A DNA stretch of 64,000 nt. It comes from Thuidium tamariscinum (lineage: Eukaryota > Streptophyta > Bryopsida > Hypnales > Thuidiaceae). The stretch lies in the NCBI GenBank assembly GCA_947034885.2, contig OX344750.2, positions 4,526,001 through 4,590,000 of the forward strand, read 5' to 3'. The position numbers and the translations under genes were made by a program. The notes under the pieces were generated by a model. The model searched no databases and had not been told where the DNA came from. It was given only the letters and a program-made list of their open reading frames with translations. Below are positions 28,475 through 56,761 of the stretch, piece by piece (positions within the stretch are counted from its first letter, which is position 1; each line of letters opens with the position of its first letter).

Positions 28475-28709
28475 TTAACCCTTGAACATCAACATGAATA
28501 CCGAACATTCTTTGGATGAGAAAGAATCTTCCTTTGTAGGATGAAAGTGCAACTATTCATCTTCAAATTTTTATGTGGAAAAAGGAGATCTTTTATATTA
28601 CTTTGACTTGCAATGAATACTTTTTGATTTATTTATTTTTAATGAAAGATTCTCTCAATATCAAAATCGATGATTTTACAATCACCTAGGTCCATCCTTC
28701 AAGGATTAA
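28475..28709 (+). mobile_element. TTAA-flanked MITE, short class (family D), 235 bp
   Basis: The ends are TTAACCCTTGAACATC at left and TTAATCCTTGAAGGATGG in complement at right. The interior carries the family words GTAGGATGAAAGTGCAACTA, TTCATC and GGAGATCTTTTATATTACTT, then ATCAAAATCGATGATTT. A second copy in opposite orientation begins 33 bases downstream. Confidence 0.8.
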
Positions 28710-28741
28710 ATCCTTACAATACAATTGCTCCAAAATCATTA

Positions 28742-28964
28742 TTAACCCTTGAAGGACATACTCATGGCCATGGAAATCATACATTTTGATACCATGTGAC
28801 ATCATCTACTTTGAATAAGCCAAATATACTCATTAGAAGTCAAAATATTGTAGAAGATCTCCTTTTCCACCCTTGATGTCGAAGATGAATAGTAGCACTT
28901 TTGTCCTACAAGAAAAAAATTCTTTGTCATTCCTCAACCACAAAATGTCCTTATCGATGTTTAA
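28742..28964 (-). mobile_element. TTAA-flanked MITE, short class (family D), reverse copy
   Basis: The left edge TTAACCCTTGAAGGACATAC is the right-hand end of the family in reverse. The interior, read on the minus strand, repeats the order of the copy at 28475. The other edge has TTAA followed by AACATC and seems to have lost a few terminal bases. Confidence 0.75.
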
Positions 28965-29119
28965 GAGTTCAGTCTATCAAAAAAAATCCACAAACTAGTT
29001 TCTTTTGTGATGGTTCATCAAGTACTTTGCATATACACTCGATGTTAGTGGGGTGAAAATGTTTTAGCTGAAGAAAGAAATTCAGTACGGTTAGCAATTT
29101 CAACGGTGGGCATGATTTT

Positions 29120-31080
29120 AGCACAGACTTCATCTCAACCAAACATCAGAAACGTGAAGAGAGCCACCGTATGCGCGTTCACGGCCCCAGGAATTGCGCA
29201 TCTCTTGGTTACCCACCCCAAAACGGAGAACCAAATAGTGCCCGGGCAACGCGTGGCAAGCGCGCTTTCAATCTGAGAGCAAGAAGCCCAGATCAGATGT
29301 TTCTTCATTTGCGTCTAACTACAAGTTGAACAATAAGTGAGGAACCCAATTCGTCCGATCCTGGAATGGAGTGAAATCCCAGCTACGGCCGTGCGAGGAG
29401 CACAGTTTCAGTGGCTCCCTCTGAGTGTCCGGAAACTGAATTTAGAGCAAATGAATTAGCAAACAGTCCCCATGTTCACCAAATGGCGCCAGGAGTGGAC
29501 AGGGGGACAGGGAATTCCAGCCTCGACGTACTGTAGTACCCCAAATGTTCTTTCGTACTTTCCTTCTAAATGCAAACTAATCTCAAAATAGTCATCTTCA
29601 TCAATCATGGCAATTGCAAGAACGGAACAGAACAGGCTTCGATACATTGTTTACTCATATCTCAGTGGTCGGCAGCTTAGTTTGCCAAATGAGTATGTTT
29701 GGTACTTTGGTAGCTCCCACCCTCGATCTCAAATGAAACATTCTTCATAGATTCCGCAAACACAAATTAAATTGGCACTGTATACGCGCAAGTACTCACT
29801 CGGAATGGAAGCTCGTCCGCATCCCAAGGGTATCCAACTTAATCTATAGTAAATTGGATCCTGTGAAGGCAACGCTGAAGCTAATTAAAACATTGATTGA
29901 TTGATTGCTATCGCAAGGACACATTTCCTGTTGAAAACAGAGGTAAGTCGTGCTTCCCGCGGTGCAGTATCATAGGACCTCTCTCATCAGAACCCGTGAT
30001 CGAGAATATCCTCACGCTGGCAAGATCGAACACAAGACAGTTGAAATTCAGGTTCACTAATCGAGGTGTGTTTTTCGCACTATGCTCCCCCATTGCGCAT
30101 ATTCTCAGCTACGCCTCTTCTGGAACGACGAGAATGCATGCAACCCATGACATTTTTATTGCTGGAGCTTTTCTAATTCTTTAAATTAATGTTGAAGCAG
30201 TAAAAAGAACTTCCGTGAAGGAGAGATTCAAGAGCCTATTCTGAAGGGATCCCCTCAGGCCATGCCCGTGCTTCTTACGGAGTATCGCTTTGAATGCATT
30301 CCGACAGTAAAGTAACTTACTCCAATTAAAACACGATTTGCACAAAGCTCCGTGCCGAGGCAAGCCTCACCACGTCGTACCGCTGTAGATCGTCTGCGCA
30401 ACGAGGCTGGTGCGCGCGAGGGATCCTATACATGAGCTCCACTTCAGTTGCAGGAGACCAAATTCAAGACTGGTTCCTAGTTCGGCCCCAGGGCTGTCCT
30501 GTCCTGTTTTCTGTGCAATGAACCTGTTCAATTGTGTAAATTTTTTTTTAAAAACAAATAAAAACGAGTTCCTCATATTAAGGAATTTCTTATTAAAAAC
30601 GTGGTTGAATCACTTGGGAATACAATCTTGAATTTCAGAGGGAAAAAAACCCGTGACCGATTGAGTACCTAATTTGTTTGCGCTTGCCGTACCGTAATTC
30701 CCATGACCTCCAGATATTTGGGTTGAGTTCCCTGGAACAATTCCTCTCCGCATTTGTCAACCTCTGATTCAAAAAAAAACTACAGTAATGCCCGTCAAAG
30801 AAAGTGTAGGTATCTCTGGAAGCAAGGGCGAGAGTTGCGCGTTCCAGGCCTCTCGTTGGGAATGAACGGTAAATATATCCCTAATAAGTTAGTCAGATTT
30901 GGCAACCAGTGGAGGAAAAAGCCTGCGGAGTGTGGAGATCCCCTCGCGCTTTCATTGAGGATTCCGAGATGCTTTGGGGTTTTTTCCCTCCCCAACTACA
31001 GTAACAACCAAAAGGTTCACGTTGACCCCACTTTCGAGATATTCATCAAGCGGCCGAGAGACAGTCAAGGATTGAGTGAT
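29120..31080 (+). repeat. Segmental duplication, copy 2
   Basis: It is the direct partner of 19220-21010, about 9.9 kb downstream. The strongest identity is at 29430-29467. Small gaps and substitutions are spread throughout, so the duplication is old. Open frames of 60-115 codons occur on both strands, but none aligns cleanly as protein with copy 1. Confidence 0.75.
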
Positions 31081-31099
31081 TCTAACAAGTCAGTGCAGT

Positions 31100-33190
31100 G
31101 AACCGCAGCTTCAAATTGAATCTTCGAAGGAAATTGGGTGCTGGCGCGGAACGGGGTCACCCACCTTTACAAAATCATTCGCAATTGCGAACGTGTTCAT
31201 TCTGCGACCCAAATTTTTTTGAGGGTTTAAACAATTCGGCAGCAGTGTCTGTAAGCATGGGTGGCTGCGCAGTAAGCTTCAAGTACAGTCCACACGCAAA
31301 TTGAGGTTCCAAGGGAAACTGAAAGGAGCTGGAATGGGAGTTTGGAAGCAACAGCTGACGTCTTGTGACACCCTGGCTCACCTCGGAAGTTACGCCACGT
31401 GAGAATTTTTGGCTCCCCTCCCATTCAAAGTGGATGAATTTTTTTTTTGGAGTTGCAACCGTACTAACACTTTTTTGTACTTGGTTTGGATGAATTTCAT
31501 TGGTGCAAAATTTACTGGGATGGGATGCACCACTCGTTGTCATTTTGAACATTTTGAGTGGAATAATTGCTAGTGAGGACGAATGGTGAAAATCACTAAT
31601 TTTCACTAACTTATAATATATTCATTTCTTTAAAAAAAAAATCATGCCAAAGTATACAACGAAGATTTATTTGAAGTCAATTCCATACACATCATTTGAA
31701 ATATACATGTCGGTGGATGGATGAGCGGGTGTAAATACTAGTAGAAACAAAGTATTTGAGTATGAAATCAAATGGGGGTATTAGAACTTCTTTTCAAAGT
31801 AAGTGAAAGATATGGTAGAGAGACCCATAACCAATAAAATAAGCACATTTGGACATGATCTAGGCAAGTGCAAGGCAAAGCAAATATTTTCAAATGTGCA
31901 TTGATAGAAATGATGAAGATTGTAAAAATTTTGGTAATTTTATCTCTTGAATTGAGATTATTATGAATTTCGAAAGGCAAAAGTTGGGCTTGACCTATAA
32001 CCAACATCTAAAGTCATCCAATTTTGATCATTCAAGAATATTTTCCCACTAATTACTTCCTACATTTATGCTCACTTATATGTCATTAACTTATTGGTCC
32101 AAGCCTTGAAAAGGTACAAAGACACACATTCCAAGGAGAAAACGGAAATCCATTCCAATCTTATTTGGAATAGGGTACCCTATTTATTGTTGATGGAGCG
32201 TGTGTCGAGAATGGATCTTTCTACTACAAATTAATAACCAATTTTACGTATTACTCAATGTTGAATTGATTTTGGTTTGGAGACATCAAACAAATTAATC
32301 TCTTAGTTCAAATATTCAAATAAAGTTCCAATACATGAACACCCCCACCATTTTTCTACTATGGAACATTTCTATTATTAAACTTGCAAAATACATATAT
32401 TGTAACATTGGCAAATAATCACAGATTTTAGTGCACCAATGCGATCATCAAAAATTGATTTTTTGAAATAACCTCAATTTGATCATTTCACCCAATGGTT
32501 AGTATTCTTATTAACATTATTAACTAGTCTAAACAATTCTGGCTTGCAAATTGGGGCAATCCCTCTATGGATGCTTGGGAGATAAATAATGTTGTAATGC
32601 TAATACCATTAGGTGGCTTGGAAGTTGTTGTATTAGGACCTTTGACTTTCTAAGAGAGTAACAAAAACACACACATTTCCCATGTTTATTGATAGTGCTA
32701 TATTAATTAGACATCTAGTGCATTTGGATGTCCTTCCCTCAAGGTATACAACTTATTTCAAAAATGTTAAGTGTTTTAGCATATGTCCAATTAAGTGGTG
32801 GTAGCACTTGGGGATAATTTTTTTCTAGTCATGGAATAGAAATAATGAAGATTGTATCATTTTTATTAATTTTCCATCAAATTTGAAATTTGTTAGTAGA
32901 AATTAAGGAAGTTTAGTTTACAATCCAATTTGTTCTCAGTATATAGGCAAACAACCCATTCCTCGAAAGAACAAAATTAAAAATTGGCCTTTGCAGCTCC
33001 ACGAGATGACAATGTGTTCTCCGTCACACAAGAATGAAGTTTCTAAAACACATCATATTTTCCTCATTCATCAGAAAAAGGTCACCCTATTTTGTGCAAA
33101 TGGTCGGAAACAAGTCATATACCTTCCTTCAAATGTAGATTTTATCAATGCCAAAAAGTGTCCAGCCTAGAGCCCATCAACATGGGCCTT
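31100..33190. other. Mostly A+T-rich stretch without genes
   Basis: Apart from the family Q copy and a 143-codon minus-strand chance frame at 31175-31606 with no recognisable domain, nothing is assignable. Confidence 0.45.
31855..32140 (+). repeat. Dispersed repeat family Q copy
   Basis: It shares CATGATCTAGG, GTGCAAGGCAAAGC, AGAAATGATGAAGATTGTAA and TAATTTTATC with 35795-36190, in the same order. Confidence 0.55.
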
Positions 33191-33194
33191 CAGT

Positions 33195-33423
33195 TTAAAC
33201 CTTAAACGACGCCAAAGCCATTTTGTGGTCAATGAATACAAGAAAATCTCTCTATGCAGGACAAAATAGCAATCATTCATCCTTAGAATTAGGGGTAGAA
33301 AAGGAAGATCTTCTATAGTGCTTTGACTTCCAACGAATGCTTTTAGAATTTTTTGAACCAATGATTCCCATGGTATCAAAATTCCTCATTTCCACGGCCA
33401 CCGGCTCATCGTTTAGGGGTTAA
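33195..33423 (+). mobile_element. TTAA-flanked MITE, short class (family D)
   Basis: The left end is TTAAACCTTAAACGACGCC and the right end in complement is TTAACCCCTAAACGATGAGC. Interior words GACAAAATAGCAATCATTCA and GGAAGATCTTCTATAGTGCT place it in the family. Its right terminus has the CCCCTAAA form otherwise seen in the long class and so links the two classes. Confidence 0.8.
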
Positions 33424-34643
33424 ATCCTATTTGACTTGTACCAAATGAAGTCAATGGTTGTGTTTTATGCATTTTCTTGGATCATTCAAAATGAGGGGCT
33501 TCAGTTGTTTGGGAGGTGGGGCCAGTGATCTCTAAACAGATTCAAGGTTTTTAGCCAAATGTTCATTTTTGGAAGATTTTTAAAATTTATACAAAGGGCA
33601 GTAAAAAATTAAGTAGAAAATGAGCGAAATTTATCAAGTTTTGGAATCACTGGTGGGGGCTTAAGTTAAGTTTTGATTAGTAAATTTTAGAATCAAACCA
33701 AAGAAAAAGAAAAAAAAAAAAAAAAAAGTTAAGCTTTGTTTTCTTCCATCCTAGGTGGCACATATCCATGTGCCTTCATCACAGGCTCATTGTCTGCGCA
33801 AGCTGTCTAGTTGTTTCCTCTTTCCTTTTAATTGATTGGTCTCCCTTGGTTTCAAAAGATGAAGAAGATTTGTTTTGTTTTGATACAAATGAGACGTGGG
33901 AGCTTAAGTTGCGTGTTAATAAATTAAGGTTGGACCACCCAATAGCAAACAGGGATGGATTCTCGACTTGTAGGAAACTGGTATTTCCGACCAGACCAAA
34001 CTTTTTTGTGAACCCTGTCTAGGAGGTTAGTTGTAATGACATGCACAGTATACGAGGTTGTGGGGGACATTACGATTACTTAAAATCTCTACAACTCAAT
34101 CGGTCCCAACCCAATCCGACAAATTGAGTTACAAAGGTTTATTCATTTAGGGAGGGTTAGATTTACTCACATCTTTGGTAATTTGACTGAGTCTCGGACT
34201 AGTCTGACACATTAAGTTACAGAGGTTTATCAACTTAGAGAGGGTTTAATAAGAGAGGTTCTACTGTATTTTGTTGAATGCCAATTGTTACTACACGTAT
34301 TTTTTGAAATTTATAGGCTTGAATAGGAAATAGTCTCCTCCATGAGTTCGTAGAATTGTAGGACTCCAGACATTAGATACTTGTTTGGAATACTTTTCGC
34401 CTCCCCAAATTCACAAGAATCTCAATTTCACAATTAAAATTTCGAACATTTTGCAATCACAATCTTTTCTATCTTCCTACACAAGAAAAATTTCCATTGC
34501 ACTTCGAGTGTCCCCACTATTGCAGTGCAAAGCAACACTACAAATACTTTCAAACCACTAATCTTCCTTGTCAAAAGAAAATCAATGGTCCAACTATTTA
34601 CCGTGTTTTGCAGTGCAGCCATGGGGCTACTCTTCACATAAGC

Positions 34644-34875
34644 TTAACCCTTGAATGCCGCCGCAGATGTTTGACGTCCGCGGAATGAAAAAAAATCTTT
34701 CCTTCCTAGACAGAAATGCAGCTTTTCATCCTTGGTATTGAGAGTGGAAGGGAAAAATTATCTACAGTACTTTGACTTCCAATGAGTATGTATTTGGCTT
34801 TTTCAAAGTAGGTGATGTCATTAGGTATCCAAATGTATGATTTCCACGGCCACCAATTGGTCCTTCAAGGGTTAA
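34644..34875 (+). mobile_element. TTAA-flanked MITE, short class (family D), cleanest ends
   Basis: The left end is TTAACCCTTGAATGCCGCC and the right end in complement is TTAACCCTTGAAGGACCAAT. TTAA stands at both edges (34644-34647, 34872-34875), with AGC outside left and GAG outside right. The interior matches the copies at 33195 and 36463. Confidence 0.85.
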
Positions 34876-35039
34876 GAGATTAGGGATGTGTGGTCCGACC
34901 TTGAGCCCAAGAACCCATCAATTTGTGTGCCATGACGGAGTCGGCCTGCCCGCCCTAGAACTAGTTCTTCAAGTACTATCTTCCCAAGTTATTAAAAGTT
35001 CGGTTTAAGACAAAAGCCCTTCATTTGATTTGATTGTGA

Positions 35040-35400
35040 TTGTGATCAGTGGGCTCCCCACCCACTGATTGGTCCGAACCGATTCTACGCTAAGTTAAAG
35101 TTCTTCCCAGTTCCCACTTCCCACCACTGGAAAGGAAAGGTAAAGTACTGTAATGGAGGTTCCCCGGACAGCACTTGTCGGGCGCTCATTGGTTGGGAAC
35201 CCCGGCCTTTTCGTCGTCTGATTGGTCCAACTCGGGTGTTTTTCATTGGACCAGCGCGGCAGCCTCGGTTCCGTTGGACGGAAAAGGGAAAGCCCCGCTG
35301 GACCCGGCTGAGGGAAAAGTGCAGCGGCGACAGTGGTCAGCACGCAGCGATGCCACGTCAGATTTCAGGCTCTACCAATTACCAAAGCCAGGCGGACTAA
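35040..35400. promoter_or_regulatory. G+C-rich island with clustered CCAAT boxes
   Basis: ATTGG (inverted CCAAT) occurs four times (near 35068, 35189, 35220 and 35248), and CpG is frequent. A small dyad GGTCCAACTCGGG/CATTGGACC is present. No gene start can be assigned nearby, so the island may be a promoter relic or part of an unrecognised element. Confidence 0.3.
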
Positions 35401-35499
35401 CTTAGGTTAAGGTTGGGGGCTGTAATTGTGACCTTGTCTCTATAAGCGATCTGGTAGATTTTATCTCTGACAAGTACCAGAAGTGTACATTTCAAGAGG

Positions 35500-35712
35500 G
35501 GGCCGCTTCTAGAAACCATTGTGTTTTCAACTTCAAAAATTCATAACTAATTCCATGAAGGTCCAAAAAATATGAAATGACTTGGGTTAGATAGATGCCA
35601 ATTCCATTTTTCTTACCACAAAAATTTACTAAAAATTATTTTAAGGAGTTTAGCTTCCCCAAAATGCAAATCAGCTGATAAAGAGTCGCTTTTATAGCCC
35701 CCTACTTTAGTA
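35500..35712 (-). mobile_element. MITE family P fragment, reverse
   Basis: Words GCCGCTTCTAGAAACCATTG, ACTTCAAAAATTCATAACTA and GAGTCGCTTTTATAGCCCCC, then CTACTTTAGTA, are the complement of the left half of the element at 54171. Confidence 0.6.
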
Positions 35713-35794
35713 AAATACGGAATACTTCTTTTCCTTTAGTTTCAGGCAGGGCATTTGGATAGAACTACCTATAACCAATCAGTTTAGGGTATCC

Positions 35795-36190: not shown

Positions 36191-36462
36191 TCTTCCATTT
36201 GAAGTAGGCCCAATAAGGTAAATTTTGGGTTCTTTGGGATAAAAATAAACTCTAACATTGCATGGTAACAACAACGTTTAAGATATTAACACTTATTGGT
36301 AGCAAGAATAGTAAGTGTCAACAAAATTTTCAACAACAGAAACAAAAGTATAAGAACCAAGATAATGCATTCTACACTACTACACTATCTGACGTGGACA
36401 CTAATTTTCAACTTAACAAGACTAGTTAGAGTGAATAATATAAAATATGATACTTAACACTG

Positions 36463-36691
36463 TTAACCCATAAATGACACCTACACCATTTTCTAGTCAA
36501 TGAATGAGAGATCATCTTATTGTGTAGGACAAAAAAAAAACTATTCATCCTTGTAATTAGGGATGGAATAGGAAGATCTTCTACAATAGTTCGACTTCGA
36601 ATGCATATTTTTGAATTCTTCAAACCCAACAATTTTTATGGTATCAAAATTGATGATTTCCATTGTTAGTAGTCCCTTATTTAAGAGTTAA
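36463..36691 (+). mobile_element. TTAA-flanked MITE, short class (family D)
   Basis: The left end is TTAACCCATAAATGACACC and the right end in complement is TTAACTCTTAAATAAGGG. Interior words such as GTGTAGGACAAAAAAA, GGAAGATCTTCTACAATAGT and TATGGTATCAAAATTGATG are those of the family. Confidence 0.8.
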
Positions 36692-37363: not shown

Positions 37364-37379
37364 TAGGAAAAGAACCATT

Positions 37380-38310: not shown

Positions 38311-38354
38311 ATTCCTCTTTCTAAATCCATATACAAAAAATTTATTTACTCTAA

Positions 38355-40552: not shown

Positions 40553-41289
40553 TTAACCCCTAAAGGACCAAGGTGCATTTTTTTGGAAACATGGTGATTT
40601 TGGGCAATTCACTACAAGTGGAGTTTTGTTTTGTTTTTCTTTGAAATTTTCACACAACATGCACCCAAGGAGTAGCTTTAAGGCCCAACAATTTTCATAA
40701 CTTTTGACTACATTGTTAAAAAGTCATTGCATGATATGTGATTTTCTTTGATCTTTGGACAACCTATGCAGCTCAAAAAACTTCTTTGAAAAAATAAGAA
40801 ATTGAAATTGGTTCTTTAGAATTTTATGTACATGGGAAGCTTTAAATCATTCCATTTGCATTAATGGAGTGAAAGTTATCAAGAGTTTTAGTTTGTGGGT
40901 ATCTATAGAGTCTTTAAAAACCATACCTACCTACAAACTAAAATTCCTCATAACTTTCACTTCATTACTCCAAAGAGAATCATTCAAAGCTTCCCATATA
41001 CATATAATTCTAAAGAACCAATTTCAATTTCTTAATTTTTTCAAAAAGTGATTATTAAAGATTTTTTTTTGCACTGCCTGGGTTGTCTAAAGATAAAAGA
41101 AAATCACATATCATGCAATAACTTTTTAACAATGTAGTCAAGAGCTATGAAAATCATTGGGCCTTAAAGGTACTCCTTCGGCACGTGTTGTGTGAAAATT
41201 TCAAAGGAAACAAAAAAACCTCCACTCATAGAGAGCTGCCCAAAATTGCTATGTTGCCAAAAGACGTAGCTTGGTCCTTTGTGGATTAA
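40553..41289. mobile_element. TTAA-flanked near-palindromic element (family C), 737 bp
   Basis: The left end is TTAACCCCTAAAGGACCAAG and the right end in complement is TTAATCCACAAAGGACCAAG. The two halves are inverted copies of each other across almost the whole element, about 350 bases per arm with many small differences, meeting near 40905-40920. TTAA lies at both edges with no wider flank match. Transcription through it would give a long hairpin RNA. It contains no open frame with a recognisable domain. Confidence 0.85.
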
Positions 41290-42531: not shown

Positions 42532-42628
42532 AACCTGACCCTCAACATTGAACACCGCAGGGCCTCCAAATATCGAGGGCTGCTGGGGATGCCCAGATAT
42601 ACCGACTCCTGGAGCCAGGGTCTTATCA

Positions 42629-43061
42629 AGAACTTCCATTGGCACCGAGAATCTTATTATTAACTCTTATCTTTTTCTTTTCAAAGGGAGGTGAATTCAC
42701 TCCTATCTTTTCAGGAACTTCAATTGGCACCGAGAATCTTATTATGAACTCTTATCTTTTTCTTTTCAAAGGAAGGTGAATTCACTCTTATCTTTTCAGG
42801 AACTTCCATTGGCACCGAGAATCTTATTATTAACTCTTATCTTTTTCTTTTCAAAGGAAGGTGAATTCACTCTTATCTTTTCAGGAACTTCAATTGGCAC
42901 CGAGAATCTTATTATGAACTCTTATCTTTTTCTTTTCAAAGGAAGGTGAATTCACTCTTATCTTTTCAGGAACTTCCATTGGCACCGAGAATCTTATTAT
43001 GAACTCTTATCTTTTTCTTTTCAAAGGAAGATGAATTCACTCTTATCTTTCCAAGGAACTG
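42629..43061 (+). repeat. 85-bp minisatellite, five units plus a partial
   Basis: Units start at 42631, 42716, 42801, 42886 and 42971, with a last part at 43057. Each has TTGGCACCGAGAATCTTATT, TCTTATCTTTTTCTTTTC and AGGTGAATTCACTC. Units 1 and 3 share CCATT/ATTAAC and units 2 and 4 share CAATT/ATGAAC. This indicates amplification as a 170-bp pair. Confidence 0.95.
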
Positions 43062-43544
43062 AGGCGGAAGAGCCGATTAGCCGAATGAATCCTGAGATAT
43101 TCATTGATTCCTTCAGCTGAGGACGGGCGGAGATCGTGCGGCAAGGACCGCCAATTCCCAACCGACGTCCCATCCGAGGCGAGTCCCATCCGAGGCGAGG
43201 CGATTTGAACTGGGTGGCCATTTGAACTGGGTGGCCATTTGAAATTCTCTAATTCGGGCACCTGATGGTTGATCAGTGGATTCCTTGGTTGCTGCTCCCC
43301 GAAGGAGAAGGAGAGCCGAGCAGTGAGCAGCAGTGAGCAGTCGCCACGACCAGCAATTATCACGCTTAATTGGGACTATAAGTTGCAGTAAGTAACTTAA
43401 GTGAGGAAAGGTTTCAATTCAATTTCTTAATTCAAATTATTAGTCAAATCTGAAATTTTTGAAATAGGAATCGGGAGATGCGGTGATGATACGCTTTTTG
43501 GCTCCCTGCGAATGGGACACGATCCCGTGTGGCCCACCTCAGTC

Positions 43545-43683: not shown

Positions 43684-44105
43684 GGCGGGGTAAACTAGCC
43701 CCCTACATAACATTCAGTAGCGCATGGAAGGACTGCCTTCCCCTTGGTGAAGTCCCCATCACCTAATTTCATCTGACATTTCTTGGAGTTGCAACTTTAG
43801 TTATTGATTGGAGTGGAATACCATTTTAGCTGGATGGAATGGCGTGGAATATCCCACACCATTTCATCCGCTGGGAGGCAGTGTGACACTCTGCTACTAA
43901 ATGTAATGTAACTCAGCCCCTCCAAGTCATTCTAGAGGTGCAAGTAAAAAAATGTCTCTTATTTTGTGCTTGATTAATTTATCTTTTATTCCCCTCCTAG
44001 CTAATTTGGGACCTTTGATTGCATGTACAAATTCAAAACTTGCAATTTTTATCATATGTGGAAGATACAAAATTTCAACATCATCCTTGCTCATGAGAGT
44101 TTGGT
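43684..44105 (+). mobile_element. MITE family A copy, interrupted by family L
   Basis: The left end GGCGGGGTAAACTAGCCCCC is cut by the L element at 43706-43908. It resumes at ACTCAGCCCCTCCAAGTCAT and continues through GGTGCAAGTAAAAAAATG to about 44105, where the end is eroded. Confidence 0.65.
43706..43908 (-). mobile_element. MITE family L, 203 bp, inserted in a family A MITE
   Basis: The ends are CATAACATTCAGTAGC and, in complement, CATTACATTTAGTAGC. A TA dinucleotide flanks both sides. Removing the element by eye rejoins family A sequence (CCCCCTA with ACTCAGCCCCTCC). The middle holds a dyad, GGTGTGGAATATTCC-like. Confidence 0.78.
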
Positions 44106-45700
44106 GATTTGTGCTAATTGAAGTAATAAAACAAAATAGGCTCCACTAATTGTCTTGTTGGGGTGGGTGAGCTAAAAAATAGAATGCCATGTTTCATTAA
44201 TATTAGTTGAGATTGGTCAATCTTCTGGGAATCAATGTGAATGGAGTTCTTGGCGTATCCTCCAACATCCACATAAAAATGCAATTGTTCATTTAAATTT
44301 ATACCACTAGTGTTAAGTTTGTTCAATGATAGAGTATATAAGGAGGTCCTTAGTCCTAGGTTGATAACTGAGCACTACAATAATATACCTTGTGGATTTG
44401 TATCCGCATTTATTTCTAGCTTCAACCCCAAAGAAAAGTACCTTAACCTTGTCACTATACTTGGGTTCACAAACCACCCAACACTTTCCATTCCATAATG
44501 GCCTAATCACAAATCAACTTGTTTTCTGACATTACTATAATCAATGTACTCCTTCTACTTCCACTCATTGGCTTAGGATGGCATCGTTACACTCTCAAAG
44601 GTTTTGCTAGCTCAATTCGAGGGCAAAATATAAATATAAGAAATTATTGTGTGGAAAAAAATTGCAAAGATGTTAAAATTGATGAACCTTTTGAGGTTGC
44701 ATTAGGTTGATATTCTTGCTTTTGTATGTTCAAATACAATTGAAGTGACCACTTAAAATTTACATTGAAGATGCTTTAATGCTTTAATTTCTGCAATACT
44801 GGGAATTTCATTGTGTTGTAAACATTGTAGTAGAGAAGTCAATCGAATATTAGAATTGTAATGTGGGCATACTCATTATAGATCCTAACTCCATCCCTAT
44901 AGTTGAAGATTTTAGGGGTTGAAATAGACTGAAATTTTGGACAAAAATAGAGATTTAGAAGCAACTAATGGACATGCCCATAATGGGTATAGCTACCTTA
45001 ATACAATCTTTACCAATTACTAGTTCATTTTGCTCACATTGAGAACATTAGTAGAAACATGGATTCCATTATTGATGGAAATAACTAATGAGAAGACCCA
45101 CAAGACTAATTAGATCCATTGCTTTAGGTCTTTCTACTAACCATGTTTTCACTGGTAAAAAGTTGATTGGTTAATTTAAAGAAACCATTAGTTTGTTAGT
45201 TGGTATACTATTGTAATGTACAATAGAACTTTTTTTAACACGATAGGTTTAGGACCAATTTGACACATTGGCTTACAAAGATTAATTGGCTCATAGAAGG
45301 CCAACTTAGAGAGGTTCTATTATAGATAATACACAACATTTTTGGGTGTTAAGCGCACAATCATTTGAAAGATTAATTTTTGAAGACGGGAAACTTGAAG
45401 GTACACAATGTTGCATTGCATGTGGAATGAAAACTATACACTGTGCTCCAAGTTTATATATAGGTATACCTAGAATAATCCCTAATTAAAATTTTGTCTC
45501 TCCTATGCACATAAGCTTAACTGATGATCAATTTTACATAAATGATAGTTCAAGCATGCATCCAAACCCAAAGAAGACCAAGGTAGGAGGTTCGTAAAAC
45601 ACTTGGGCTTTAAAAGCACCCACCTCTTAAATTGTACATTATTTGTACATTATTTTTTGTTTTCACATTGCACCAACAATGTACAAATAGTGTGCTTTTC
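44106..45700. other. A+T-rich stretch without genes
   Basis: Short frames only; no element ends recognised. Confidence 0.5.
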
Positions 45701-45704
45701 AAGA

Positions 45705-45880
45705 AGTGATTGCTTCTAGTGACCATTGTATTTCAACTTCAAAAATTCATAATGAATTCTTCAAAGCTCCAAAAAATATGAAATAACTTGAATCAGATGC
45801 CGCTTCGACTTGTCTTTCAAGAAAAAATTGGGTGAAAAATATTTCAAGAAGTCTGACCTCCCCAAATGAGTTTCCAGTTC
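45705..45880 (-). mobile_element. MITE family P fragment
   Basis: It shares ATTGCTTCTAGTGACCATTG, ACTTCAAAAATTCATAATGA and CTCCAAAAAATATGAAATAA with the copy at 35500. A shorter remnant lies near 19005-19080. Confidence 0.5.
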
Positions 45881-46193
45881 TTAAATGGTTGATGATGTGG
45901 TCAAAATTCAAATCATATATCAGTATGCTCAGGGCATGCCCAGCAGAGATAAGATACAGGTAAATAATTCAATTGTGAAAATAGGAAATTCATGCCAGCA
46001 GGCACCACCTGAAAAACTCGTTTTTGCCAGGGCAGTGTATGCATGAGCAGCACGATGCAATTTGTCCTTCTTTTTATAATTCACTGCAATTTTATTCAAT
46101 TCTGCTGCCATCGGCACCCCGGCAGTCTTTGTAGGGGCAAAGAAAAAACAAGAAGTTTTGAGGAAAAAACAAAAGGAGCACTCAAAGGAACTG

Positions 46194-46398
46194 CATTACA
46201 TTCAATAGCAGACTGGCACACTGCCTCCCAGCGGATGAAATGGTGTGGAATATCCCACACCATTCCATCCAGCACCAATGGTATTTCACGCCATTCTGTA
46301 ACTAAAGTTGCAACTTCCAAGAAATGTCAGATGAAAATTAGGTGATGGGGACTTCACCAAGGGGAAGGCAGTCCTTCCATAGGCTACTGAATGTTATG
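46194..46398 (+). mobile_element. MITE family L, 205 bp
   Basis: The ends are CATTACATTCAATAGC and, in complement, CATAACATTCAGTAGCC. It is the inverse of 43706-43908 along its whole length, including GGTGTGGAATATCCCACACC and ACTTCACCAAGGGGAAGGCA. TG flanks both sides. Confidence 0.78.
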
Positions 46399-46516
46399 TG
46401 ATGCATACTTCCATCCAAGGAATAACAACCCATTGCATAATTCAAAGTATTATTTATTTCTCGAAGAACTCGGACGGAACTGCTTGACGGAACCCCTTGC
46501 ATTGAAAGGTGATAAT

Positions 46517-47446
46517 TTAACCCCTAAAGAACCAAGGCCTTTTTCTGTCAAAAACCTCTCAAAACTGCCATTTCTGTTGCAATCACCCAAGAAAACAAAA
46601 AATAATAATTTTTTAAGAATCTAACCATAGGATCTTGTACTTAACTTGATTGAGATCATGTGGTAAAAATTTCATGAAGTTTGACCGTATAGATTAGAAG
46701 ATATGAGCATTCAAAGTTGGAAATACAATTTTTTTTGAACTGTGGACTGCAATTTCAGATGACTTTGATTGCCGTTTGTTGAACTTTTTTGCACTATAGA
46801 CTTTGATTTTTTTTTAAATTGTGTTTGATAATTGAGTTAAGAGTCCAAGAAAAAAAACTTACACAAAAAGCACTTGATTTTCATTCTTTGAAAAATTGTT
46901 AAGTAGATGTAGGTCCAAGATTTAAAGAAAAACTAAATGGTTAATAACTCTAAGGTGGGATTGAAATACAATAATCCCAATGGTGAGATTGTTCTAGAAA
47001 GTAACCATAACCTTGTCCAACAATTTCTTTTGAAAAAATGTGAAAATTGCATTTAGAAATGAATCCTATAGGTTATTTTTTTGAGAAATTGTTTAGATTG
47101 CCCGAGAAATAAGATTGTCCATAACTTTCTCATTATAAGTCCAAATAGAATGAATCAAAGCTTCACATGTAGGCAAAAATATATTATTTCAGAAAAAAAA
47201 ATCAAAAAATCAAACTTTGAATTTTTGCAAAAAAAAATTCTGCCTACCGAACGAAAATTTGGGCTTTTTGTGGTATAACTTTTGCTTCTGGTCACCAATT
47301 GAAATAAAAATTACATTCCCACAAAACTAATCAGTTTTTCTATCTTGTGAGAAAGTTTCAAAAGGTTTCACCAAAAATTGAAGTCTACATAACTTGCCCA
47401 AACTCCAAATTGTCCTCCGAGGGGACAACGGTCCTTTAGGGGTTAA
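46517..47446. mobile_element. TTAA-flanked element, long class (family C, second subtype), 930 bp
   Basis: The left end is TTAACCCCTAAAGAACCAAG and the right end in complement is TTAACCCCTAAAGGACCGTT, with TTAA at 46517-46520 and 47443-47446. The interior differs from the 40553 element, but part of it (near 46930-47000) recurs in reverse at about 52990-53070. It is non-coding. Confidence 0.75.
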
Positions 47447-49218: not shown

Positions 49219-49247
49219 TTCCTTAGTAAAATACAGAGGGAGTATAG

Positions 49248-49486
49248 CACTATGAGTGAGTTGATCCCCTCGCTCCACCCCTCCAAGTCATTCCACGGGT
49301 GCAAGTAAATAAAAAAATCCCTCTATTTTAAGCTTGATTACTTCACCTTGTACACCTATCCTTGCTAATTGGGGGCCTACAATAGTAACTTTGAATTCAA
49401 AATTTGCAAATTTTATCATGCAAGAAAAATAAAAAAATTCGGCATTTTTCTGAGTGGCCAAGAAGGAGGTCAGTTCCCCCGCCCTA
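49248..49486 (+). mobile_element. MITE family A, tandem neighbour copy
   Basis: It begins GAGTGAGTTGATCCCCTCGC and ends AGGAGGTCAGTTCCCCCGCC. In between it follows the copy at 48968: CTCCAAGTCATTCCACGGGT, GCAAGTAAAT, CTTGATTACTTCACCTTGTA, GGCCAAGAAGG. The terminal repeats are more diverged. Confidence 0.7.
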
Positions 49487-49803
49487 AATTAACTTGCTAT
49501 GCTTCGATGTACTGTTTCCTTTATCAATGGAAATTGTCCATTTGGTAAAAAAAAAAGAGAGTGAACTTACTATGGTAACCCTAATAAACAGTGCTTGCAA
49601 AACCCCACCCGAGCAAAAAGAACCGCGGCTAGTCGACAGCCCCCAAACGGACCTTCGGCGGAGCGGATCCACCAATCCCAACCTCGGAATGATGACTGTT
49701 CATATTCGCTGCAGGCAGGCAGGCCGGCCCCTCCCCCGCCCAGTCAGGGGCTCCCAAATTGGGCAGTGTCCGAACCCCCTGGATTCTGGAGCCTTCTAAC
49801 GGA

Positions 49804-49859
49804 GCCAGATTTAGAGGCTCCTGCCAGATTTAGAGGGACCTCCAAATTTAGAGGCTCCA
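49804..49859 (+). repeat. Short tandem repeat of 19-20 bp, three units
   Basis: GCCAGATTTAGAGGCTCCT, GCCAGATTTAGAGGGACCT and CCAAATTTAGAGGCTCCA follow one another. Confidence 0.8.
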
Positions 49860-50254
49860 TGATCACCCCGGAGGCCCTGACATCCTCCACCAGGCCTGGC
49901 CGCTGGGGAAGATTTTGACCACCACTTCCTGCAACTTCCGCATGCTAACTTTGGCGGACGGCTTCCAAATTTGGACCCCCTTCTATTTTGCTTTTTCTGC
50001 GGGCAGGGCAATTGGGGAATGATGCTTGGATGATTATTGTTCTTATTATTATTACTACCGTATTCAGACCCTTTTGGAATAATTGGAAAGAGATGCCAAG
50101 ATTCCTAGTTATTAAGTTCTCTTCTGAACCTAAATTAGTCACACTAATAATGAAGCAATCAACTGAAAGCTTGAAGCCTGGCCTAAAGTTATCTTTACTC
50201 CGTCTCATGAAATGTTTGCAATTTGCTAATGGGTGGGAATCAAGAATTCTTTTC

Positions 50255-50462
50255 AAGTGCGACCGTCCTTCTTTCTCTTTTTCTTTTTCTTTGCAAATGG
50301 GATGGAGGGCACATACTGTATTAGGCAACTGAGTGAAGTGGGGCCTCCTTTTTTCTTTTTCTTTGTCTCTGCAAATGGAATAGAGAGCACTTACTGTATT
50401 AGGCAACTGAGTGAAGTGGGGCCTTCTTTTTCTTTTTCTTTTTCTTTGCCAAATGGAGGACA
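50255..50462 (+). repeat. Tandem repeat of about 75-78 bp, two and a half units
   Basis: Units contain GCAAATGGRATRGAGRGCAC, TACTGTATTAGGCAACTGAG and TGAAGTGGGGCC, then a CTTTTT-rich run. The starts are near 50293, 50371 and 50446. Confidence 0.85.
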
Positions 50463-51124
50463 CTTATAATTACGCAAGTTGGACCCTGGCAACTCTGTCT
50501 GTCAGGGGAGAGGGGAGTGCCCATCTCTAATAATAATTAGCTTAAGTTAGTGAAGCTAAAATTGTTTAGCTAGACTAATTTGATGGTTCTCCTGATTAGC
50601 AGTAGTTTTAGAGGGAGTTTCAGTGGCTCCAGGCCCCCCTCGACGCTGCATCCAATGCAAAACCATTGTTGTAAGTTATTTGGGGGATGCTCATGCAGCC
50701 ATCATGTGCAGCTGCTCAGACCTTAGATTCAAATTCCTAAAAATTCCTTACAACCAAATTGTGTTTTATTAGGTTTTGTTCAACTTGGGCAGTTTGACGT
50801 TTGACTTGTTAGCTTGCAAATTTTGTATTTTTAAATGCATATTTCTTGCTAAGGCTTGAGTGCAAAATTATCAACTATGATATTTTAGTGATTATAAAAA
50901 ATGAACAAAATTGTAATTTCCTTTTAATTTTGATAACCATTTATAAAAAAAACAATCTAAAATCTTTGATAGACTTGTAGAAGCTTGTTAGATTTTATAC
51001 GGTCTTTTGGCTATCTTTCCTATTCTGTCACAAATATTCCATAAAATAAATACTTCCACTTGAAATGAAGGTTAATAAATTCCTATTGCAAAAAAGAGAA
51101 CTTAAGGTCTACTTTGCACATCAA

Positions 51125-51348
51125 AACTCAAGAAGAAGATGTAGAAGAGTGTAGAAATACCAAATTTGAAGTGATCGCCATCTTGGCACTTTCTCAAAAA
51201 GTAAAAATTTGGATGAAAAAAGTGTATGAATATGATGAAAAAGTGTTTTTAAGTCCAAAAGATAGATGAATGTAAAATTAAAATGCTTCACCGAATTTGA
51301 AGTGATTGCCATCTTGGCACTTTCTCAAAAAGTAAAAAAAAAGGGCTG
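51125..51348 (+). repeat. Dispersed repeat family E, partly duplicated copy
   Basis: The right-hand module, ending in GCCATCTTGGCACTTTCTCA, occurs twice, first near 51165-51208 and again near 51300-51340. The second is followed by A-rich sequence and GGGCTG as in the other copies. Confidence 0.7.
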
Positions 51349-51850
51349 GTCATGACCACACCCTAGGCACCGTGCACCCTCCTTTGGTCCGTCCGTCCGT
51401 AATCTCTCATGTGCGAGATTGCAGAGGACGTTAGCCGAGTCGCAGATCAATAATACCCCCCGGCAAGCAAGCAAGGTACATTCATGGCAAGCTGCAAGGC
51501 TTTTGCTGGCTGACCCTCCAGTTGAGTTAGCTGGCCAAACAAGTGCGGCACCCTCCCTCCCTCCCATCGCAGATAATTCCAAATAATGAACGACCAATCG
51601 TCCGTCCTGGGCCCTTTGAAGCTTAGGATCTTCCCATCCCATGTTCGCCCACTGATTGTCTTCATAATGCCTTCCATGGCCTCAGGGCTTGCCCTTTCTT
51701 TCTCTTTTGCAGCCCTCGATTATCAATGATGGAAGAGCTTTGCTTCACTTGTGGCCTTCCACTTGACCCACTTGGATGCCGGTATTGGATACCCTGGAAC
51801 CTAATCACAAATAAGGGTACCGTACGTGTAGGTCAGTTTTGTAAACATTT

Positions 51851-52087
51851 GGGGATTTTTGAGGCCATTGGAAGACTACGGGAACATAGTTTCTGTTGCG
51901 TGAACAAGAATCTTATGTGGTCAAGAGAGTGCTACATCATTAAAAAAATTGAATTTTTTTGGGGTCTTTTTTCATATTTCAGGATCCAATTCTTTTTGGA
52001 TAAATGCTCGCCTAACAACGGCCAGCAGTTATAGGAACAATTTCGGGGAATAGCCCTGAAACGGCCCTTTGGAGGCCTCAAATCCCC
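51851..52087. mobile_element. MITE family B copy
   Basis: The left end is GGGGATTTTTGAGGCC and the right end in complement is GGGGATTTGAGGCC. The interior holds GGGAACATAG, TATGTGGTCAAGAGAGTGCT, TTTTTTCATATTTCAGGA and CCTGAAACGGCCCTTTGGAG, in the same order as the copy at 55904. Confidence 0.75.
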
Positions 52088-52359
52088 TCTAATGATAATT
52101 CGGGAAAATTTGGAAAATTGTTTACAACTATTTCTAAAAAATTGTTCTTGAGGAAAAATAGAAAAAGGAACATAATTACTCATGAATAGAAAGAATCAAT
52201 CCAAAATTAGGAGTGTCCCCATAAATTGCCGAAAATGAGAAAAATTTCAATTTGCCTACTGAATTGTTGAAGTGAAAAAAGTAAACTCTTTTGGCATGAC
52301 TTGTTGAAACAGACCTGCATGTATGGCAGATAAGCCTACTATTTACCATGCAAAACTAG

Positions 52360-52745
52360 CAATTTGAATATCTATACCTATCGAGAAAATAAAAATCCTC
52401 ATAACTTTCATCTCATTAATAAAAATAGAGTGATTCAAATCTTTCCACATGTATATGGAAACATGTGAAGAATTAATTTCAAGTCTTTCTTTTTTAGGAA
52501 AATGATTTGAAAAGAAGTTTTTTGAGGTGCCTCAAGTATCTTTTGGAGCAATGAAAATCACATATCATTCAATAACTTTTCATCCATTTCGTCAAAAAAT
52601 CGAAAATTGTTGTCCTTAAAGCTATTCCTTGAGCCCATGTTGTGTGGAAATTCAAAAAAATAAGTAAATCTCTATTTTGTATTTAGCTACCTAAAATTGT
52701 TATGTTGCCAAAATAAATGTGCTTTGGTCATGTAGGGCTTCACCC
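52360..52745 (-). mobile_element. Family C fragment, reverse orientation
   Basis: Reading the minus strand from about 52745, the order GACCAAAGCAC, TTTTGGCAACATAACAATTT and CACACAACATGGGCTCAAGG follows the arms of the 40553 element. The outer TTAA end is eroded. Confidence 0.6.
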
Positions 52746-52749
52746 CTAC

Positions 52750-53360
52750 AATTCTGAATTGTCTTAAAATTTAGATTTATGAAAATATTTGTTTTCTTAT
52801 CAATTACATTTTTGTCTACATGGGAACTTTTGATTCAATACATTTGAATAAGTTATGGAAAAATTTTAGACAATCTTAATTTCTAGGTAGCCTCATCATA
52901 TTTTTGAAAAAACACACTTTGTAGAATTCATTTATGAATGCATTTTTCAAAATTTTTAAAAACAAGTTCCAAATAGTACAAATTTGCTTGCTTGCTAGGA
53001 CAATCTCACTATTGGGATTAATGTATTCTAATTCCATCTTAAATATATTAATAATTTAGACATTCTTTCTATCTTGTACCTAATTAATACTTGACAATAT
53101 TTTTAAGGATGAAAATTAAGTTTTCTTAAAATCATTTTTTTCCTAGATTTTTCCTAAACTCTATAGTGCAAAAGTTTAAGTTAAGAAGGTTCAAAGTCAA
53201 TAATCTAGTCCTGCATGTGCAAAAGAAAATTTCGTTTTGTCTTTTGTTTTGTTTCTGATTTCAAATGCAAATATCTCCCAATTTGTGTGGTCACAATTCC
53301 TGAAATTTATTCCACCCATTCTTATACTAGGTGAGTGCAAGTTCCTACAATAAAATGTCT
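52750..53360 (-). mobile_element. Family C (46517 subtype) fragment, reverse orientation
   Basis: Words such as GACAATCTCACTATTGGGAT (52999 on) are the complement of the block near 46980 in the 46517 element. The next blocks keep the same reversed order up to about 53360. Ends are lost. The fragment abuts MITE family B at 53362. Confidence 0.5.
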
Positions 53361-53361
53361 A

Positions 53362-53600
53362 TAAGAAATTTTGGACTGTGGGAACGCAATTGTTGTCGCG
53401 GGAACAGGAATCCTACGCGGTCAAGAGACTATTACGTCATTAAATTAATTTTATTATTATTATTTTTTTAAATTCTCATATTTCAAGACCCAAATTTTAT
53501 TTATTTTTTGGTTAATGCTGGCTTGACAATAGCCAACAATATTGGGAACCATTTCGGAAACAGATCCAAAATGGCCCTCCAAAGCCCACAAATTTTATCT
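53362..53600. mobile_element. MITE family B copy, eroded ends
   Basis: The interior shows GTGGGAACGCAATTG, CCTACGCGGTCAAGAGACTA and TCTCATATTTCAAGACCC, ending with TGGCCCTCCAAAGCCC. It matches the copies at 51851 and 55904, but the terminal repeats are no longer clear. Confidence 0.65.
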
Positions 53601-53677
53601 AATGCAAGAGTTAAGCAGCTTATCCTGAAGTTCAAACTAGAAGAAGAGTGATTTGCAAATTGCGTGGTTGAATCAGT

Positions 53678-54067
53678 ATGGGAGTTAAGCATCATATGCT
53701 AACTTATGCCAACCCAAGCTTGACGTGCAAGATGAGATCCATTCTTGGAGGCATCTTACTTGAGGTGCTGGCCAAGGTAGAGTGCTTTACGTATCCAAAA
53801 ACAATATTTAGTTTTTTCTTGAAGGAGCCTCATAAGTCCATTCTGTACCCATTCTTGGGGCCCATTGTGAATAATGGGCTACCACTAGAGAAATTCAGTG
53901 ATATTATTTTGGCTTGCATGAGTGAGTGGTGGCCAAGTTATAACAATTGGAGTCAAAAAACTATTCAGAAACACTTCAATAGCAAAAAGGCCGGCATGGG
54001 AATGTTATGGCCCGGCAATCACAAGAAGTATGCTCTCGTCAATCATTCAGGGTGTGTGAGACATTAG
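53678..54067 (+). CDS. Open frame of 129 codons, possible gene fragment
   Basis: The frame reads MGVKHHMLTYANPSLTCKMR, later GGILLEVLAKVECFTYPKTI, IILACMSEWWPSYNNW and GMGMLWPGNHKKYALVNHSG. It is the longest frame in an A+T-rich area, has a protein-like mix with several tryptophans, and lies outside the mapped MITEs (between copies of families B and P). I do not recognise a family. It may be an exon or remnant of a larger gene or transposon, or chance. Confidence 0.3.
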   Translation: MGVKHHMLTYANPSLTCKMRSILGGILLEVLAKVECFTYPKTIFSFFLKEPHKSILYPFLGPIVNNGLPLEKFSDIILACMSEWWPSYNNWSQKTIQKHFNSKKAGMGMLWPGNHKKYALVNHSGCVRH

Positions 54068-54170
54068 GTAGACAGACCGGTTACAGACCGGACCCCATCC
54101 CTACTTTGGGACCCAATTTTGCTCTCTTGCATCCTAATGTAGCAGCGGAGCACTCTGTAAAAAAAATATA

Positions 54171-54700
54171 CTAAGGTAGACTGCTCTAAAAGCGACCACT
54201 TAAGAGCTGATTGCCTTTTCGGGGAAGCTGAACTCCTTGAATCAATTTTCAGTCAATTTTCATAGGAAGGAAAATGGGATTGGCATCTAACCCAAGTAGT
54301 TTCATCTTTTCTGGACTTGTGTAGAATTAGTTATAAATTCTCAAAGTTCAAACGCAATTTGCTCTAAAAGTGACCACCTGCTGAAATACACAACTGTAGT
54401 ACATTGCAAAAAACAAAATCTACTAAGGCAGAGGCACCCAATGGCGTGCATGTACCCAATGGCGTGTGTTTCTACAGCGCACAACGATTTCAGGCTATAA
54501 ATGTAGGTAGGCAGTACATGGCTTATTTTTTTGACCTAAAACAATAAGCAGTCTACAATCCCGCTACATTTCTGTTCTAGAATGAATGACTGCTATAGAA
54601 ACGCACACCATTAGGTACAGGCACGCCATTGGGTGCCTCTGCCTTACTATGACATGGTCGCTTTTAGAAACATGGTTGCTTTTAGAGCAGTCTACCTTAA
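54171..54700. mobile_element. MITE family P, 530 bp, with a nested element
   Basis: The ends are CTAAGGTAGACTGCTCTAAA and, in complement, TTAAGGTAGACTGCTCTAAA, followed by an AGCGACCACTT-like block. The left interior recurs in reverse at 35500-35712 and in part at 45705-45880. Another inverted-repeat element sits at 54421-54649. Confidence 0.75.
54421..54649. mobile_element. MITE family O, 229 bp, nested in family P
   Basis: The inverted ends are about 55 bp: TACTAAGGCAGAGGCACCCA at left, TAGTAAGGCAGAGGCACCCA in complement at right. Within each arm the words ACCCAATGGCGTG and RTACCYAATGGYGTG make a small tandem repeat. The resemblance to the outer ends (CTAAGGTAGACTGC) suggests related elements. 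Confidence 0.78.
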
Positions 54701-54784
54701 TGAAAGTGTGGAATTGGAGTTTGTGCAATTCAAATTGGGCTAAGAATGCATTAAGGTAATTACACCTAATCAATGGGTTTTTTC

Positions 54785-55065
54785 CTCGCGATTTGGAGCA
54801 AAATTGCACCAAATTTTTTGGCTTGGCATCATGTCTATAGAAAATAAACAATAGAATTTTTTATGAAACCACCAATAAATTTTAAATTTCTTAAAACTAT
54901 TAGATGAATTGCCAAATAATGGATGAAAATAGAATGAGAGATATGTATTATGTGCTAATATTATATTTTCTATCAAATATATAGATGAATTTTGAAATTT
55001 GGAGCAGTACAATAAAATGAAGTACTGCCACTTTGCCACTTTACATGAAATGGAAAAAAAATTGC
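54785..55065 (+). repeat. Dispersed repeat family F copy
   Basis: Family words AAATTGCACCAAATTTTTTG, AATGGATGAAAATAGAATG, TATTATGTGCTAATATTATA and TAGATGAATTTTGAAATTTG appear in the order of the copy at 55120. Confidence 0.55.
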
Positions 55066-55119
55066 GCCTAATTTCAATATCTTTTCAGAAATTTAGGGCA
55101 TTGTTTCTTCTTAGGCAAT

Positions 55120-55345
55120 TTGTTACCAATTTGCACCAAAAGAATGGGCTGTACACCAAGTCCATAGAACATGCACTACAAACATTTAGGATGAAAGTGC
55201 CACATTGTAGATGAAAACAAAATCATGGACATGTGATATGTGCTAATTTGTTATATTCTATCCAGTATGTGGATGAATGTCAAAATTAGGAGCTACACTT
55301 TGGCAATTTAAAAAGAAATGAAAAATACATAAGTAAATAAATAAA
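55120..55345 (+). repeat. Dispersed repeat family F copy
   Basis: Words AATTTGCACCAAAAGAATGG, GTAGATGAAAACAAAATCAT, GGACATGTGATATGTGCTAA and TCTATCCAGTATGTGGATGA define it. It lies directly after another copy in the same orientation. Confidence 0.55.
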
Positions 55346-55416
55346 AAATAAAAACTTGTTCAAGGTGTCTCTAATCAATAGAAATTATCCATGTGTTTTA
55401 GAAAATGAAAACAAAA

Positions 55417-55560
55417 AACCAAGGTGAACTCACCCCCTTATTCATCCCCAAGGAAAATTGCTAAATTTTTAAAACTTTCCACACATGATATAATTTGCAA
55501 AATCAAAATTTATATTTGCAATTAGAAACCTCAAATTATCTAGGGAGGTCAAAAACATCC
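55417..55560 (-). mobile_element. MITE family A fragment, reverse
   Basis: It reads AAGGTGAACTCACCCCC, then TTCCACACATGATATAATTT and GCAAAATC, the complement of the family A right half. The far end is lost. Confidence 0.5.
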
Positions 55561-55903
55561 CTTGAACATGGCACAAAATAGTAGATTGCTTTTTTACATG
55601 CTCTCTTTAAATAGAAAAAGTTTTGTGAACCATTCTAATTGCATCTTCTCAGGTAGAGAGGTAATAAATCTCTCAACAAGGCAATTTCCAAGAAGCAATT
55701 TCCATCATCATCCAAAACAATTTCCATTTGAATAACTTCCAAAATAAGAATTGGATGAAAAATGATTACTATGATTACATACATCCAAATGCCATTTCTT
55801 TCATTTACCTACGTAAAAGGGTTTAGGTATGCACGTCTAAGATAAAATTCATTGTACTCTAAAACTTCTTTGTATACATTCTTGTCTAATTAAACAATCA
55901 TTG

Positions 55904-56176
55904 GGAGGGATTTGAGGCCTCTGGGAGCCTGTGAGTTCCCAGAGCCCGAAATCCCGAAAACTACCGTGGGAACGCAGTTCCCGTAGGAATCCGACGTGGT
56001 CGAGCGATTGCCACGTCATCGATTTTTTTTTTCCAAATTTTTTTTTTGGACTTTTTTTCATATTTTAGGACCCAATTTTTTTTTTTTTTTTAAAATGTTG
56101 ACCAGCGGCCAGCCGTTCCCAGACCCTGTTTCGGGAACAGTCCCGAAACGGCCCTTTGCTGGCCTCAAATCCCTCC
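55904..56176. mobile_element. MITE family B, best-preserved copy, 273 bp
   Basis: The ends are perfect 16-bp inverted repeats, GGAGGGATTTGAGGCC. Inside are paired G+C blocks around an oligo-T centre: GTGGGAACGCAGTTCCCGTA, CGACGTGGTCGAGCGATTGC, then GGGAACAGTCCCGAAACGGC. No convincing target duplication was found, so the superfamily is open. Confidence 0.8.
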
Positions 56177-56389
56177 TATGCTTATGGACTTAAAAGTCCA
56201 TGATTAACTTTGAATAAATCTATAATCACAACTTTGAAAATATGTAGCATATTCATATGGCATCAACTCATATGTAATAAGATTTCTTTTTTAATTTGCC
56301 AACAACCTTGAAAATTGTATGAAAATTTTATCGGATTGAATTTACAATTATAAGCCTAATATATATATATATGGAACTATTTAACATTG

Positions 56390-56761
56390 TTATACCTACC
56401 CTATAAAGACTCCATACCTTCCCGCAAACAAAAATTCCTCATAGTTTTTGACTCCTTAATCCAAATGGAATGACTCAAAGCTTCCTATGTCTCTAAAAAC
56501 CTAAAGAATCAATTTGAAATTTTACTTTTGAAAAAGAAGTTTTTTCAGTTGCCCAGGCCCCAAGTTCAACAAAACAACATATCATGCCATAACTTCTTAA
56601 CCGTGTAACCAAAAGTTATGAAAATTGTTGAGCCTTGAAGCTACTCCTCAGACACGTGTTGTGTCAAAATTTCAAAAAATAAAAATAAGAACTCCATTTG
56701 TAGTGAGCTGCCCAAAATTGCTATGTTGCCAAAAAATGCAGCTTAGGGATTTAGGGGTTAA
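56390..56761 (-). mobile_element. Family C fragment with a preserved TTAA end
   Basis: The right edge is ATTTAGGGGTTAA (TTAA at 56758-56761). Inward come GGCAACATAGCAATTTTGGG (complement) and the other words of the 40553 arm, in order. The opposite end was not found; a family B MITE lies just upstream. Confidence 0.65.

Follow-up and report, generated by a model that had tools for sequence, protein, structure and literature searches.

The window analysed here, the whole stretch of 64,000 nucleotides at positions 4,526,001 to 4,590,000 of contig OX344750.2 in the assembly GCA_947034885.2 of the moss Thuidium tamariscinum, harbours a population of short elements with TTAACCC-type termini, which we consider very probably to be miniature inverted-repeat transposable elements (MITEs), non-autonomous derivatives of DNA transposons that belong to the piggyBac superfamily and reside in a land plant. 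Eight elements are preserved at both ends and fall by alignment into four families. Family A is represented by 7070-8021 (952 bp, + strand), with TTAA at both edges, family C by 46517-47446 (930 bp, + strand) and family A' by 40553-41289 (C2:4566553-4567289; 737 bp), a palindrome formed of two inverted copies of the left ~360 bp of A. The five short elements constitute family B: 28475-28709 (235 bp), 33195-33423 (229 bp) and 36463-36691 (229 bp), all on the + strand and recognised by direct reading and alignment; 34644-34875 (232 bp, + strand), which served as the genome-wide query for this family; and 28742-28964 (223 bp, - strand), of which the right end, the most degraded of all, has decayed to TTAAACATCG and retains little but the TTAA. 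Alignment likewise reveals fragments of A or A' at 2197-2696 and 52363-52740 and a fragment of C at 52787-53348. A one-ended family A fragment occupies 56404-56761 (358 bp, - strand), its terminus at 56745-56761 on the - strand carrying four mismatches. The four families and their fragments account for 5,865 of the 64,000 window bases (9.2%).

CCC follows exactly after TTAA at 11 of the 16 ends of the eight elements, and the remaining ends are degraded to TTAATCC, TTAACTC, TTAAACC or TTAAACA. The window contains 12 TTAA-anchored termini with up to three mismatches, whereas 30 windows simulated under an order-1 Markov model averaged 0.37 and had at most 3. A first-pass annotation had proposed eight elements with TTAA at both edges, and all eight were recovered with their coordinates unchanged; the one-ended copy it placed at 56761 is the edge of the family A fragment. 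Its division into two size classes gives way to the four families, and its view that the interiors are unrelated holds in part. The interiors of family B have no match to A or C in alignments, whereas A has interior sequence in common with A', and stretches of ~65-220 bp in common with C at 66-78% identity.

The elements are not confined to the window. The exact 17-bp terminus occurs 2,682 + 2,556 = 5,238 times on the two strands of the 363-Mb assembly, compared to 0 + 0 for the reversed control. Among the first 100 listed of the 5,238, 18 neighbouring pairs are convergent at less than 1.3 kb, of which 17 span 915-934 bp; two close pairs are divergent and one lies on the same strand. First-look searches with A, B and the palindrome A' returned 11,407, 2,184 and 8,227 candidates, respectively, totals that overlap and are not copy counts. 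Pairwise likeness among 20 family B copies is 87-96%, and the best 39 other full-length copies of family A are 93-96% like the copy in locus L006.

The same genome contains transposase-coding elements of the piggyBac kind. A profile search with PF13843 (piggyBac transposase) scored at least 116 domains out of 658 candidates, all above the curated cut-off and with a best E of 5.7e-80; none of 14 control genomes has a match to this profile. Eight 9-kb loci (L029 to L036), picked for diversity and long frames, were read among these domains. In seven of them (L029, L030, L032, L033, L034, L035 and L036) inverted TTAACCC-type termini enclose the transposase in full-length elements of 5.1-7.1 kb, and in L031 only the right terminus was found. 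The first-pass annotation had advised a search for a long copy with a DDD/DDE transposase, and these elements encode a DDD transposase: the triad (D174, D253 and D366 in the numbering of the L030 stretch) is invariant in all eight, and its motifs align to piggyBac and piggyBat. The L030 protein matches the solved structures of piggyBat (9c0f, E 1.8e-32) and piggyBac (6x67, E 7.8e-25), and a C-terminal cysteine/histidine cluster is present in seven of the eight transposases compared and missing from the L034 frame.

The ends of these elements connect them with the MITEs. Both ends of family C match both ends of the L032 element (289 bp at 73% and 74 bp at 80%). Comparison of the ends of family A with the L035 element yields 219 bp at 70% at one end, and on the other side 144 bp at 74%, which lie 209-350 bp in from the end in both. 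Families A and C keep the end sequence of piggyBac elements without the coding middle, family C deriving from an L032-like and family A from an L035-like element. Because full-length piggyBac elements have ends matching those of the MITEs, the resemblance to piggyBac that had been noted initially can be read as kinship. The system is piggyBac and not an undescribed superfamily, although the first-pass annotation had seen in it the best candidate for an undescribed system, and Sola3, mentioned alongside, is not needed for A and C. As to the further suggestion of one transposase for both size classes, A and C trace to different piggyBac lineages, and therefore one common transposase is not established; for B we found no parent among the loci read.

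TTAA stands on both sides of all 51 copies examined, a set composed of 20 B and 10 A copies (best full-length matches), the eight window elements, six other MITEs and seven full-length elements. Beyond TTAA, identical neighbours of 2, 3 and 4 bp occur in five, two and two of the 51 copies, and of 5 bp or more in none; two B copies in this set belong to a segmental duplication and have the same flanks, and for L029 the join had a wrong left edge. The count is weak by itself because many copies had been selected for their ends or for full-length alignment, and it is the empty sites that carry the weight of the case for TTAA duplication. The junction of 7070-8021 is spanned by 31 of 46 aligned paralogues; seven were read, none with a gap, and six show TTAA and one TTAG. 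For the full-length L034 element the junction is spanned by 35 of 40 paralogues, and all eight that were read have a single TTAA. Two empty paralogues of the family B copy in L059 contain a single TTAA, and one of the two lies in the window itself (3188-3315, + strand, 82%; the insertion is at C4:14564689-14564922). In addition, the B copies of L057 and L061 (C1:20178375 and C2:45642770) were inserted in opposite orientations into the same TTAA of one repeat, for which two empty paralogues exist in L010 and L017. Insertion turns one TTAA-type site into two TTAA, and these empty sites bear out the earlier suggestion that TTAA is the duplicated target.

Two further arrangements involve such sites. 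At 920-2238 of L029, tandem repeat copies have the same TTAA-type site; one of them is empty, one holds another TTAACCC-ended sequence from 1264, and one holds the full-length element at 2239. In L141-L142 (C3:19001620), CCCCTAAAGGTC comes immediately after the TTAA on the right of an A' copy, as though that TTAA were shared with a second element.

The palindromic A' elements deserve separate consideration. In ten copies 28-38 of 40 terminal bases agree with the left end of A and 22-27 of 40 with its right end (the right end of L129, read one base out of register, excluded), and by this comparison both ends of A' correspond to A's left end. Native piggyBac of Trichoplusia ni is described as requiring asymmetric ends, the LE35/LE35 combination being inactive for excision and integration in cells, whereas a hyperactive mutant is described as accepting LE35/LE35 to a lesser extent (PMC7351741). 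From the behaviour of native insect piggyBac in cells, the amplification of MITEs with two identical ends would not be expected. This requirement raises the alternative that A' copies form on site, by inverted duplication after insertion, instead of moving as symmetric elements, and it is in line with this alternative that neither of the two A' joins searched (40553 and L004) gave an empty site among the best 40 candidates each. Against it, one and the same palindrome of ~740 bp is matched at 39 of the 40 best scored places, along 712 or more of its 749 bases and in both orientations, and nine of ten copies read have TTAA on both sides with different flanks, the tenth having TTAC on the right. 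We regard formation on site as unlikely. A' copies that move as symmetric elements would mean that the moss enzymes are relaxed or that every site needed is present in the left end of A by itself.

Several observations weigh against the interpretation of the window elements as piggyBac MITEs. No parent of family B was found among the loci read (eight of the 116 or more with a piggyBac domain and, for one of these, a further ten copies), and its best end similarities are low, with z 2.1-2.6 to L031/L029 at one end and z 3.5 to L036 at the other. Not every empty site reads TTAA: of 40 paralogues aligned to the join of the L002 copy of family C, five span the junction, four with CTAA and one with CTAG at unchanged length, and the one empty tandem neighbour of the L029 element reads CTAA, of the right length. 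Empty paralogues are absent among the best 40 candidates each for the other seven window elements (six joins); for L004, L030, L032, L033, L035 and L036 they were likewise not found within this number of candidates. Finally, TTAA is palindromic, and a duplication of TA or TAA at a TTAA gives identical letters.

The lack of a parent for B, together with interiors that match neither A nor C, leaves room for the idea that the short class was moved by another superfamily, its TTAACCC terminus being merely convergent. Sola3 and Kolobok both target TTAA and would be the candidates. On the other hand, B has the same TTAACCC-type ends and TTAA empty sites as elements of demonstrated piggyBac kinship, and only the few loci named above were read to their ends; we consider a Sola3 or Kolobok origin of B distinctly improbable. 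The ambiguity of the palindrome concerns all families. An element ACCC...GGGT with a TA duplication (Tc1/mariner), or CCC...GGGT with TTA/TAA (PIF/Harbinger), would yield the same letters if TTAA were a mere target preference. Yet all four bases are kept on both sides throughout the 51 copies, many of them chosen as described above, and the enzyme in the linked elements is piggyBac. It is because of this kinship that we choose TTAA over TA or TAA, the duplication of which appears very improbable.

The preferred reading, that of MITEs accompanying piggyBac elements, gains a temporal dimension from the L029-type element. Eleven copies, among the matches listed, have a 1,023-codon frame with no stop within the PF13843 match; in all eleven the termini are 5,096 bp apart, with TTAA on both sides, different flanks and both orientations represented. 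Nine copies that were compared share 99.9-100% identity across 3,984 bp or a little more, and their similarity breaks off at the same edge; one copy only was read through its whole 5.1 kb. Near-identical copies at loci with different flanks imply very recent transposition, and the L029-type element is likely to be active at present. Contamination or assembly duplication as the source of the piggyBac copies, for which we saw no indication, has a practically negligible probability, as the near-identical copies differ in their flanks and the listed domains lie on contigs C1 to C10 (24-54 Mb), which also carry light-harvesting complex (LHC) genes (49 matches, exons counted apart) and two RbcS genes (four exon matches). 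Compared with PDB sequences, one LHC exon scores highest with 6l35, 7xqp, 7ksq/7kux and 8htu, entries from the moss Physcomitrium patens, at 342-344 bits; the next sequence reaches 331 bits and all others at most 316. A second LHC exon proved less specific, and the letters by themselves thus make a moss a likely host.

An N-terminal module of ~110 residues lies 5' of the transposase domain in seven of the eight loci and was not found in L032. Its LGW motif is invariant and WPD is present in five of seven, and six of these seven modules have a methionine 35 or 43 residues ahead of the core. A search with the L034 module scored the best 150 of 328 candidates, and 36 of these 150 lie 1.8-4.4 kb 5' of a listed transposase domain on the same strand, compared to 0.14 expected, with none on the wrong side or strand. 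Of the 116 listed domains, 80 lack a module in this list, and near 114 of the 150 modules there is no listed domain, figures that apply to two partial lists (116 of 658 domains) and to a query that does not recover divergent modules, the one in L029 among them. No match to a Pfam family, a PDB entry or a known fold was found for the module. It may form a helical unit involved in contacts with DNA or with a partner protein. A +1-frame ATG is situated just after WPD in L030 (~6907), L036 (~2151) and L034 (~6616), and in L030 and L036 this +1 frame looks like the conserved one, which could represent overlapping frames or a frameshift.

We observe the ends, the target and the enzyme, and infer the reaction itself from the one described for piggyBac (PMC7351741). 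The transposase would cut at the element ends, generating four-base TTAA hairpins and freeing the element; the donor site would be rejoined at TTAA without a footprint, and the element would enter another TTAA. Each MITE would rely on the enzyme of an element that has the same ends. A wider scenario, which we put forward tentatively as somewhat short of probable, is that mosses carry a long-standing plant branch of piggyBac that has its own N-terminal helical module, is still moving and has relaxed end rules under which one end type serves both sides. Palindromic one-end MITEs would thereby have spread together with thousands of other TTAA MITEs and perhaps make up a sizeable share of the genome.

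The window contains other repetitive sequences besides these families. The stretch 43705-46399 has inverted repeats whose arms (65 nt at 97%; 122 nt at 88%) are separated by 2.3-2.6 kb and show no TTAA at their edges; they perhaps belong to another transposon of the kind with long inverted repeats. A tandem array with a period of 85 bp, seen as five overlapping 178-nt copies, is located at 42621-43138. A decayed Copia-like retrotransposon at 14020-16135 includes a segment matching Pfam PF25597, and a frame of the same element has a CCHC-type motif, recognised by eye and with no Pfam match.

Transposons of the piggyBac superfamily are best known from insects and other animals, and intact elements in land plants are hardly reported. 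The available excerpts of a 2022 review of land-plant transposons name six terminal inverted repeat superfamilies, and the word piggyBac is absent from them (PMC9033089). In other sources, PiggyBac is one of seven MITE superfamilies of angiosperms (PMC10004981), the repeat table of C-fern includes 1,230 PiggyBac copies with 122,417 bp (PMC6890710), piggyBac is stated to have been isolated from insects, fungi and plants (PMC10813416), and the superfamily is attributed to most eukaryotic lineages (PMC9499001). As these angiosperm MITE, fern and general records exist, the label piggyBac is not new for plants. Within the literature searched, the novelty appears to lie in full-length elements that moved recently and have a new N-terminal module, and in the one-ended palindromic MITEs, all in a moss-like genome. 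A plant population of piggyBac elements with very recent mobility would extend the host range documented for this superfamily, which serves as a tool of genome engineering, and would supply a natural plant source of enzyme and ends. The A' elements would provide natural symmetric-end substrates for asking why insect piggyBac needs asymmetric ends.

The angiosperm and C-fern records share the label and a plant host with the moss elements, and consist, in the portions at hand, of a label and a row in a repeat table (PMC10004981, PMC6890710), whereas the moss provides transposase-coding elements, ends and empty sites. The MITEs of corals (CMITEs) are likewise non-coding and tied to a piggyBac-like autonomous element of the same genome (PMC2872659). 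Apart from the different host, CMITE families are described there as more conserved in the interior than at the ends, whereas in the moss the termini are common and the interiors differ between B and the other families. With piggyBac of T. ni and piggyBat of Myotis the moss elements share a homologous DDD transposase, the C-terminal cysteine cluster, the TTAA target, CCC termini and clean four-base empty sites. They differ from both in their land-plant host and in the amplified derivatives with two identical ends. Compared to the figures given for piggyBac, the moss elements are larger (5.1-7.1 kb versus ~2,472 bp; PMC10813416), their frames extend up to 1,214 codons from stop to stop versus a transposase of 594 residues (PMC7351741), and a conserved N-terminal module takes the place of a disordered region of ~100 residues (PMC9499001). 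The moss elements are a plant variant of the known piggyBac kind.

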